DNA of 64,000 nt from Fimbriiglobus ruber. GTDB lineage: Bacteria > Planctomycetota > Planctomycetia > Gemmatales > Gemmataceae. Shown here piece by piece: positions 34,719-38,328 of the stretch. Where the stretch lies: contig NZ_NIDE01000004.1 of NCBI RefSeq assembly GCF_002197845.1, positions 62,001 through 126,000 on the forward strand. Reading direction: 5' to 3'. Under the pieces are notes generated by a model. That model was not told the DNA's origin and ran no database searches. It worked only from the letters and a program-made list of their open reading frames with translations. The first letter of the stretch is position 1. Every line of letters starts with the position of its first letter. A program made the translations under genes and the position numbers.

Positions 34719-36778
34719 ATGCGGACGCGACTCCTGTTCGCCGTGCTGATCGCTGTCACCGTCGCCCCGGACGCGCCCGCCGCGGGTAAGCGGTACGCGG
34801 TGTGTATCGGGGTCAACCAGTACGCATCCGACAAGCTGGACACTCTCGGGTGCGCGGTCGCGGACGCGACCGTCCTGGCCGATGTACTGCGGGACGCCGG
34901 GTACGAGGTCGCCCTGCTCACCCCGGCGGCCGCCCGGACCGCTCCGGCGGCCGCACCCACCTGGGCCAATATCGCTGCCCGGCTCGACGCCCTGTGCGCC
35001 GGCAAGGAACCGGGCGACACGGTCGTGTTGGCGTTCATCGGGCACGGAGCGAGGTTCCGCGACGATCCCGACTACTACCTTTGCCCGAAGGACGCTCAGC
35101 CTGTCCCTGACCGGAAGCAGACACTGGTCTCCGTGGCTGACATCTACACCCAACTCGGTAGGTGCAAGGCCGGCAGCAAGGTCTTTCTGTGCGACGGCTG
35201 CCGGACCGACCCAACTCCGGGGCGCCCCCAGACACCGAACGACGTACTCGGGACGACTCCGCCGCCCGGCGTGTTCGCCCTGTTCGCGTGTGGTGTCGGG
35301 GAGCGAGGGTACGAACATGCTGCGCTGGGCCACGGGGTTTTCACCCACCACCTGCTGGCGGAACTGAACCCGCCGGCGCGGGACGCGAACGTGGACCTTA
35401 ACTTCACGGCGCTCGCAACGCACGTCACCCGAGAAGCACCGGCGACGGCCGCCCGATGGCTGGGCTCCGGGGCGCGGCAGACGCCGACCACCCGGGTGGG
35501 CAGTGGACCATCGCCGGTTCTGCTGACACCAGCCGATTCGCGGTTGTTGGCCGATCGGGTCGAGGTCCGCGCGATCTGGGCCCGGGGCGGGAAGAGTACC
35601 GAGTACGTTGAGCGGGTAGTCACCGAGCGGATCGGTGAATGGAAGGAAGCCGCCACACGGGGATCGGCGATCGGGATGTTCTTGCTCGCAAAGTGTCTGG
35701 AAACAGGGCGCGGAATACCGCAGGACGCAAAAGCGGCTGTGGCGTGGTACCGCAATGCCGCTGACCACGGGGACGCCGGCGCGATGACAAGTTTGGCGGG
35801 TTGTTACGTGACCGGTACGGGCGTCATACCTGACCAGAAAGCCATGCTTGAGTGGCTTCACAAAGCGGCCGACCACGGCGATGCGGACGCGATGAGCAAC
35901 TTGGGAGCCGCTTACTTGCTCGGCCAGGGGGTCGCGACGAACCACGAACGCGGGTTCGCGTGGGTTCGCAAGGCGGCGGCCCTGGGCGAGCCGTCGGGCC
36001 TTTATTACCTGGGCCTTTGTTACCGGAACGGCCTCGGCGTCGCGCGCGATGCCGAAGAAGCGGTCGCATGCTTTCGCAAGGCGGCCGAGCTAAATGACTC
36101 GATGGCAATGACGAATCTGGGCGGCTGCTATCAGAAAGGGATCGGCGTCCCCGCGGACGCGGCAAAGGCGGTCGAGTGGTACCGCCTGGCCGCCGACCTG
36201 AAAGATCCCGTAGCGACGTGTCTTGTCGGGTGTTGTTACGAACGAGGGATCGGGGTCGAGAAAGATCCGAAGGCGGCGGTGGCGTGGTATCGTAAAGCGG
36301 CCGACCTCGGGGACGTGGCCGCGATGGGCAACCTGGGTCTTTGTTATTTGGACGGAGAAGGTGTCGAGAAAAATGCCTACGAGGCGACATCGTGGCTCCG
36401 CAAGGCGGTCGACCTGAACGACCCGGAAGCGATGGCGCGCCTGGGAGACTGTTATTTACACGGCACCGGGGTGAGATACGACGACGTGACGGCGATCGCC
36501 TTGTACCGCAAGGGCGTGTCAATGAACGACCCCGGGCCATGTACTGCATGGGCAGCTGCTACGAAAACGGGCTGGGCGTCGAGACGAGCCTGACGGAAGC
36601 GGCGGCCTGGTATCAAACTGCTGTGACTGCCGGATACGGACCCGCGACCCAGGCACTCCAGCGGGTGCAAGGAAAACAGAAACCCGCTGCTAAACCCGCG
36701 ACGTACGACACCACCGGAACGACCGGGGCATTCAATCAGACGGCCAACAAACCCCACTGGCTCTACGGCGATAAATGA
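34719..36778 (+). CDS. Exported caspase-like protein with Sel1 repeats, paralogue 2, with frameshift near 36530
   Basis: The N-terminus matches paralogue 1 closely: signal peptide, KRYAVCIGVNQYASDKL, FIGHGARF with His 109 and VFLCDGCRTDPTP with Cys 161. Sel1 repeats begin near residue 305 and number about eight, without the inserted modules of paralogue 1. The frame ends at 36593 in low-complexity sequence, but Sel1 sequence (RAMYCMGSCYENGLGVETSLTEAAAWY) continues in the next frame to TGA at 36776. One extra C in the CCCC run at 36530-36533 restores it, so the full protein is about 686 residues. It starts 145 bases after paralogue 1 with a copied upstream region. Confidence 0.8.
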
Positions 36779-36877: not shown

Positions 36878-37423
36878 ATGCCCGCCGCCCTGCCATCACT
36901 TTCCGCCCTCGAACTCCTCACCGCCGACGGCGACCGGGCCGCGCTGGGATCCTACCTCACGGCCGACTTCCTCGTCGTCGTGTTTCTGCGACACCTCGCC
37001 TGAATCCCGTGCCTCGCCCACCTCGGGGAGGTGGCCGCCAACCGGAAGCGATTCCTGGCCGCAGGTGCCGGCATCCTCATCGTCTGCCAGGCAAAGCCGG
37101 CCGTACTCGCGATGTTCCTGCGCAACCAGTCCCAGCCGGTTCCGGTCGTCTGCGACCGCGACCGGGTGGCGTACCGGGCGTTCGGGCTGGAAGAAACGAC
37201 CTGGCTCAGTTTCTTCCGTCCGTCGGTGCTGTGGGGGTACGTGAAGTTGATGGCCCGCGGCGGCCGTTTGCGGCGGCCTTACGAAGGGGAAAACGTCCTT
37301 CAACTCGGCGGCGACTTCGTCCTCGATCGGGACGGCCGGGTCGTGTTCGCGTACCGCAGCCGGGTCGCGACCGACCGGCCGATTGTCGCCGCGCTCCTGG
37401 CCGCACTGCCGACCCGTCGATGA
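36878..37423 (+). CDS. Peroxiredoxin-like (AhpC/TSA_2, PRXL2/SelU-type) protein with in-frame UGA, candidate selenoprotein
   Basis: ATG 36878 opens a frame that meets TGA at codon 42 (37001-37003) and then runs on to 37423, 181 residues in all. The surrounding sequence is FLVVVFLRHLA-(UGA)-IPCLAHLGEVAANR, which aligns with the FlRhfGCxfC redox site of this thioredoxin-fold family, placing UGA at the first Cys of CxxC. Downstream, YRAFGLEETTWLSFF and GGDFVLDRDGRVVFAYRS..TDRP are family blocks. A hairpin (CCACCTC-GGG-GAGGTGG, 37018-37034) starts 14 bases after the UGA, where bacterial SECIS elements sit. Without readthrough, translation could only begin inside the domain. A TGC to TGA mutation is the alternative. 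Confidence 0.7.
37018..37034 (+). promoter_or_regulatory. Candidate SECIS-type hairpin after the in-frame UGA
   Basis: Seven perfect base pairs (CCACCTC with GAGGTGG) closed by GGG, within the coding sequence, 14 bases after the UGA. The G-rich apical loop and the distance suit SelB binding, but GC-rich coding sequence often forms such hairpins by chance. Confidence 0.4.
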
Positions 37424-37438: not shown

Positions 37439-38328
37439 TTACCCGGCCGCCCAATCCCGCGGCTTCAGCCAGTAGCCCGTTAGCTCAGCTTCGGGCGTCC
37501 CGGCGACCGGGTGGTAGTCGTACACGTACCGGACGGCGGGCGGCAGACTCATCAGGATGCTCTCGACTCGCCCGTTGGTTTTCAGGCCGAAGATCGTGCC
37601 GCGGTCGTAAAGCAGGTTGAACTCGACGTATCGGCCGCGGCGGTATTCCTGAAACTCTCGCTGGGCCGCCGTCCACTCTAACCCCTTCCGCCGCCCCACG
37701 ATCGGGAGGTAGGTGTCGAGGAACTGGTCGCCGGCCGCGCGGACGAACGCGAACGCCGCGTCCAGGTCGTCGCCCCCGAAGTAGTCGAAGAAGATCCCGC
37801 CCACGCCCCGTGGTTCGCCGCGATGCGGGAGGAAAAAGTAGTCGTCGCAGTCCTTCTTCATCTTCGCGTAATCGACCAGCGGGGCGTGGGCCTCGCAGAC
37901 CCGCTTCCAGGTCTGGTGGAAGTGAACCACGTCTTCCCGGACGGGGTAATACGGCGTCAGGTCGCCCCCGCCGCCGAACCACGCCTTGCCGCCGTGCGTG
38001 AGCATCCGGAAGTTCGCGTGGACGGTCGGCACGAGCGGGCTGCGCGGGTGCAGGACGAGCGAGACGCCGGTCGCCGAAAACCGGAGGCCGTCCCCCGGGA
38101 TCTGCTTGGCGAACTCGGGGTGAAGTCGCCGTGGACCTCCGAGAAGTTCACGCCGGCCTTCTCGAACACCCCGCCCCCCTCGATCACCCGGCTCCGCCCG
38201 CCGCCACCGCCCGGACGGGTCCACTCGTCCTGTCGGAATTTGGCCGCTCCATCGATCCCTTCTACCCCGGCACAAATGCGATCCTGGAGCCCGCGGAAGT
38301 ATTCGACGGCGCGGTCGTGCATCGTCAT
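37439..38328 (-). CDS. hemF: Coproporphyrinogen III oxidase, oxygen-dependent, with frameshift near 38117
   Basis: The C-terminal two thirds show HemF blocks: [67 protein letters not shown] and [31 protein letters not shown]. The N-terminus ([27 protein letters not shown].., EDEW-like [20 protein letters not shown], then [15 protein letters not shown]) lies in a different frame. One extra base in the four-base run at 38117-38120 joins them as GDFTPEFAKQ. HemF decarboxylates coproporphyrinogen III to protoporphyrinogen IX in haem synthesis and needs oxygen. Start at 38328 or two codons later. Confidence 0.88.

Follow-up and report, generated by a model that had tools for sequence, protein, structure and literature searches.

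An in-frame UGA codon very probably recoded as selenocysteine in a PRXL2-type redox protein of Fimbriiglobus ruber

Overview

A gene of Fimbriiglobus ruber with a UGA codon inside its reading frame is, with high probability, a selenoprotein gene in which the UGA is recoded by the SelB- and hairpin-dependent route (Table 1). That this UGA, at codon 42, encodes selenocysteine (Sec) is close to certain. The gene lies in a stretch of 64,000 nucleotides (the window), which corresponds to C4:62001-126000 in a source genome of 12.36 Mb in 20 contigs. The evidence consists of the conservation of the codon, a hairpin downstream of it, the Sec machinery of the genome and the predicted active site of the protein.

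The reading frame and its domain

The frame contained one internal TGA and a terminal TGA, and no other stop was present. The read-through protein matched Pfam AhpC-TSA_2 (PF13911) with 55.8 bits (cut-off 27, E 7.1e-15) and Pfam AhpC-TSA with 41.1 bits (cut-off 26, E 2e-10). A sequence-only reading of this DNA had claimed a complete AhpC/TSA_2 frame with a single internal TGA at codon 42, and both the coordinates and the Pfam results agreed with it. Moreover, the protein scored 175.9 bits against NCBIfam NF040769 (SelL-related redox protein), for which the curated cut-off is 120. All 24 members of the alignment used (A1) matched this family at E <= 0.001, and the window protein did not differ from it in the features tested.

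Table 1. Positions of the selenoprotein gene and its features within the window
Feature	Position	Strand	Basis
Gene of the probable selenoprotein, 181 residues and stop, AhpC-TSA_2 / SelL-related redox protein	36878..37423	+	Frame, profile matches and homologues; putative start ATG
UGA codon for predicted Sec42, first residue of UxxC	37001..37003	+	TGA in 59/64 and Cys in 5/64 family homologues
Cys45 codon (TGC), presumed resolving residue	37010..37012	+	Cys in 64/64 family rows and 67/69 phylum rows
Putative bacterial SECIS hairpin; arms 37018-37024 and 37028-37034 pair over 7 bp around the loop GGG (37025-37027)	37018..37034	+	Covariation, slid controls, codon bias, loop G

Conservation of the UGA codon

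Homologues were sought in 95 genomes of the same family as the source, and 61 of these had one. The search gave 69 matches, from which the five weakest were dropped (E 1.8e-4 to 8.0e-4, no inner stop, four of the five partial), leaving 64 genes for examination. The codon-42 column held TGA in 59 of them, TGC in three and TGT in two, with Cys following three residues later throughout. In the phylum sample of 392 genomes, 279 matched the family alignment, and the 69 best rows outside the window gene were examined in a profile-guided scan. Among these, the column was TGA in 32 and Cys in 37, and the position three residues on was Cys in 67, Phe in one and Ser in one, both exceptions being TGA genes. 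These two phylum relatives with UGA and no second Cys were L136 (UxxF) and L145 (UxxS). The TGA column is conserved far beyond chance. The identity to the window protein over 12 residues was similar on the two sides of the codon and amounted to 58% before the UGA and 63% after it (58 genes).

The earlier reading had placed the UGA on a redox Cys column. The homologues bore this out, as they carried either UGA or Cys there, and planctomycetes of other families showed the motif RHFGCTFC; Cys was found in the column in 5/64 family genes and 37/69 best phylum rows. It had also been claimed that the TGA is not a break of the indel type. Possible frameshifts do occur nearby in the assembly, where hemF is split over two frames, and a sequencing error in a codon that is truly Cys, or a dead gene, could be suspected on that ground. 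However, the same TGA was present in 58 other family genes and in the 32 phylum rows, the frame had no further stop, and compensatory changes keep the hairpin. Since the same TGA occurs in 58 other genes, a base error is untenable, and its conservation excludes decay as well; the chance left to error or pseudogene is negligible. None of the three findings that the earlier reading had named as refuting it came up, and its interpretation is supported.

Recoding of UGA to another amino acid, such as Trp or Cys, through a code change or plain readthrough was also weighed. As relatives have Cys in this column, a UGA-to-Cys reading would fit the alignment as well. However, the terminal stop was TGA in 28 of the 59 UGA-form genes, which indicates that UGA remains a stop signal, and none of the 59 contained another in-frame TGA. 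The tRNA-Sec and sel genes of the source genome and the conserved hairpin further argue against such a reading, which is considered very improbable.

Further relatives were searched for in sequence collections. A scan of a collection of genome contigs with the window protein gave no relative. The narrower alignment A3, run against this collection, gave 23 loci, of which 20 had E <= 5e-19 and planctomycete or unspecified-bacteria titles. Named relatives among the A3 matches were Gemmata, Fimbriiglobus and other Gemmataceae, and the record of Gemmata sp. IIL30 carried one relative. The remaining A3 matches were weak and came from one Thermoanaerobaculia MAG and two Saprospiraceae MAGs. No match was obtained in the plasmid collection.

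The hairpin downstream of the UGA

The hairpin, CCACCTC-GGG-GAGGTGG, overlaps the codons for HLGEV (37019-37033). A hairpin of seven base pairs beginning 14 bases downstream had been noticed from the sequence, and 14 bases indeed separate the UGA from the first paired base. Its conservation was evaluated in the 59 UGA genes with identical rows counted once, giving 57 distinct rows, related sequences included. The seven stem pairs were formed in 87.5% of cells, compared with 35.6-53.1% when the pairing was slid by one to three columns. Double-change cells numbered 34, against 12.1 +/- 2.5 in shuffled alignments, and the covariation score was 0.243, against 0.096; neither value was reached in any of the 500 shuffles. 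Two of the five covariation measures did not rise above the shuffles, namely, the pairs with a double change (3; reached in 406/500) and the further pair types (9; reached in 127/500).

The outermost pair varied among CG (23), GC (16), UA (4), UG (3) and AU (1), with 10 rows unpaired, and the innermost was CG in 33, GC in 5, UG in 1 and unpaired in 18 of the 57 distinct rows. The five innermost GC cases coincided with a Glu-to-Gln replacement, and three other rows with Gln were unpaired there. Codon usage within the stem was also skewed: Val+10 was GTG in 47/48 genes (270/713 elsewhere in the same genes), Glu+9 was GAG in 39/40 (207/409 elsewhere) and Gln+9 was CAG in 8/8 (164/328 elsewhere). 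Codon choice thus follows the stem. The first base of the loop was G in 58 of the 59 UGA genes.

The window hairpin folded alone had a z of -0.40 over 48 nt and of -0.01 over 60 nt, and a different pairing won over it in the longer of the two folds. As single-sequence folding gave no unusual stability, the case rests on the comparative evidence. By comparison, the gene has what is expected of a bacterial selenoprotein: soon after the UGA comes a hairpin whose loop opens with G. Pairing is poor in 13 of the 59 genes, where no more than four of the six inner pairs form. Seven of these 13 are near-identical and come from one genus. In these seven UGA genes (L061, L062, L064, L065, L066, L069 and L070), the HLGEV stem is lost; for most of them, the prediction gives another short hairpin, GCCC-AUCU-GGGC, whose loop lacks G. 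Overall, it is likely that the hairpin at 37018-37034 directs Sec insertion.

Selenocysteine machinery

The sequence-only reading had proposed that the genome be searched for the sel genes, and selA, selB, selD and tRNA-Sec were all found. SelA (C1:625330-626688) scored 557.4 bits (cut-off 268), SelB (C1:1183716-1185608) 362.6 bits in two pieces (cut-off 242) and SelD (C5:62285-63208) 361.8 bits (cut-off 125). The tRNA-Sec (C11:63579-63672) scored 70.7 bits, with the anticodon given as tca by ARAGORN. Two loci called tRNA-Ser by ARAGORN also scored above the cut-off of the tRNA-Sec model; accordingly, only the 70.7-bit locus was counted. In 14 control genomes, the same models exceeded their cut-offs in five genomes for tRNA-Sec, two for SelB, one for SelA and two for SelD. 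As a positive control, a second UGA gene was found on the same contig, encoding the formate dehydrogenase alpha subunit (FdhA; C4:28752-31886, minus strand, approximately 30-33 kb before the start of the window; 1016.6 bits in pieces against a cut-off of 814). Its single in-frame UGA stands in the context QARI-U-HSASVPG.

By analogy with the established bacterial pathway, SelA would make Sec-tRNA(Sec) using selenophosphate from SelD, and SelB would bring the Sec-tRNA(Sec) to the UGA at 37001-37003. The delivery to codon 42 would depend on the binding of SelB to the hairpin.

Among the genomes with a UGA-form gene, selA exceeded the cut-off in 53/58 and selB in 51/58, and the three that had neither were 65-88% complete. 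Family genomes without a UGA-form gene had selA in 32/37. As selA is as common without the gene as with it, the machinery does not track the gene; it is general in the family. Two near-complete genomes (G049 and G094) had neither selA nor selB over the cut-off, and no homologue was found in them. Genes for Sec insertion were reported in Gemmata obscuriglobus in 2016 (PMC4807772).

Fold and active site

The structure was predicted with AlphaFold2 from a 24-row alignment, with Cys in place of Sec (pLDDT 95.0, pTM 0.91). Residue 42 was located directly before the helix at 43-54. The best PDB match of the predicted fold was 9usa, in which human prostamide/PGF synthase (PRXL2B) carries the C44S/C47S exchanges, with a Foldseek E of 3.4e-10, a Z of 20.3 and an rmsd of 2.3 over 160 residues at approximately 20% identity. 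The wild-type PRXL2B, 9us9, had a Z of 17.0 and tied with the best Bcp-type peroxiredoxin; PRXL2B therefore leads but does not stand alone. In sequence searches of the PDB, phmmer with the window protein gave nothing significant. With the profile, Bcp-type peroxiredoxins ranked first by E-value (2ywn, 1.1e-8) and human PGFS fourth (9.3e-7), and among the alignments shown human PGFS alone was matched in a single stretch (profile positions 2-158).

In the profile alignment, the pair U42/C45 coincided with C44/C47 of human PRXL2B, that is, with its CxxC. Against a Bcp-type protein, the pair fell on the motif TxxC, U42 matching its Thr and C45 its Cys. These alignments indicate that Sec stands in place of the first, thioredoxin-type Cys. 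Taken together with the NF040769 match and the fold nearest to PRXL2B, the placement on C44/C47 points to a UxxC selenoprotein of the PRXL2 type. The label "PRXL2/SelU-type" given earlier can thus be kept in its PRXL2 part, which is backed by the structure. The best curated sequence family is NF040769, and "SelU-like" (SelU being PRXL2A, a relative of PRXL2B) may be applied to the protein in the broad PRXL2 meaning only.

Oxidoreductase chemistry at the UxxC is somewhat favoured for this protein. Sec42, which in this thioredoxin/peroxiredoxin fold stands at a helix N-terminus, would be the attacking residue of the pair and, judging from the PRXL2B and peroxiredoxin families, may reduce a peroxide, an endoperoxide or a disulfide. 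A selenenylsulfide would then form between Sec42 and Cys45, and thioredoxin or a reductant of that kind would restore the starting state.

Distribution of Sec and Cys forms

A quick tree was built from 133 genes; it is unrooted, and many of its forks are unresolved. The distribution of Sec and Cys required 11 changes on this tree, compared with approximately 36 with shuffled labels. The window gene was among 59 rows behind a branch with a support of 97, of which 56 were Sec and three Cys, and the three Cys genes were single tips among Sec genes. The simplest reading of such lone tips on an unrooted tree is three changes from Sec to Cys. Two of them (L016 and L048) still formed all six inner hairpin pairs, as recent Sec-to-Cys converts might be expected to do. 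On this tree, Sec is the usual form in the family.

Genomic neighbours

A relative of the di-haem cytochrome c peroxidase/MauG (CCP/MauG) group was found on the same strand just downstream of the gene at 20 of the 64 loci, in 20 genomes (E <= 1e-20); its Pfam assignment comes from a single copy (L164:3077-4636, plus strand). This arrangement is no more than a lead on function, in which the selenoprotein would be tied to the adjacent CCP/MauG protein in several genera, for example as a maturation or reducing partner. However, no such neighbour was found beside the window gene or at the other 43 loci. CCP/MauG-type peroxidases are normally exported, and no signal peptide was seen by eye in the window protein. 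Such a partnership is accordingly regarded as unlikely.

In the window, the gene is followed on the opposite strand by hemF (coproporphyrinogen III oxidase; 37439-38301, minus strand), whose two frames cover profile positions 4-72 and 66-295. The split probably reflects a frameshift or an assembly indel near 38100. Positions 34719-36778 on the plus strand encode a protein that combines a caspase domain (Peptidase_C14) and seven Sel1 repeats, with a weak further Sel1 match at its end in another frame.

Relation to known selenoproteins

A 2008 listing counts SelL, a peroxiredoxin-like protein, among the selenoproteins that prokaryotes have in common with eukaryotes (PMC2398784). The window protein shares the Prx-like character of SelL from aquatic animals and bacteria, and the name of its NCBI family points to SelL; the existence of a family so named indicates that the protein is known to curators. 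SelL itself carries the diselenide motif UxxU. UxxU was found in none of the 133 genes examined, and the window protein, with UxxC, is therefore not a SelL in the strict sense. The nearest fold, human PRXL2B, has Cys at both active-site positions. Sec-peroxiredoxin (PF00578) shares the superfamily fold, but its motif is given as TxxU in the 2026 review table (PMC13188914), compared with UxxC here.

Another close entry is the AhpC/TSA selenoprotein (pfam13911 / cd02970) of a deltaproteobacterial symbiont, which has the same Pfam domain and one Sec at the start of the motif, according to the tabulated entries (PMC9312934, PMC13188914). It is listed as UxxS in the tables of both the 2022 and 2026 reviews (PMC9312934, PMC13188914), unlike the UxxC of the window gene; among the 69 best phylum rows, one (L145) was UxxS. 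Among the 119 families tabulated in 2026, UxxC does occur in further Prx-like entries, filed under PF00578 and PF08534, but neither an AhpC-TSA_2 UxxC entry nor NF040769 is included (PMC13188914). The AhpC-TSA_2 UxxC form was likewise not found in the parts of the 2022 table consulted (PMC9312934) or by a literature search, and an earlier account may exist in the 2007 SelL paper, in two by Haft and colleagues or in that on the Olavius symbiont. The 2026 review states, in its classification rule, that the same domain with a different motif makes a different subfamily (PMC13188914). Under that rule, UxxC and UxxS would be separate subfamilies. The recoding itself is standard and the Sec form is real; its dominance in the family is the new point.

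Implications

Standard gene callers end such genes at the UGA or start them after it. A conserved redox enzyme may thus be misannotated in many planctomycete genomes. With 59 Sec genes and five Cys genes among 64, the Sec form is far commoner in the family. Since closely related Sec and Cys enzymes share the same active site, they would permit a direct test of what selenium brings to a PRXL2-type enzyme. Tentatively, these genes may constitute a PRXL2-type UxxC selenoenzyme subfamily in which, within one planctomycete family, Sec is the older and normal state and Cys a rare derived one, with the SECIS element contained in the codons of the conserved HLGEV motif. The enzyme may pair with the neighbouring di-haem peroxidase in several genera and, together with FdhA, may be one reason for the retention of the Sec machinery.
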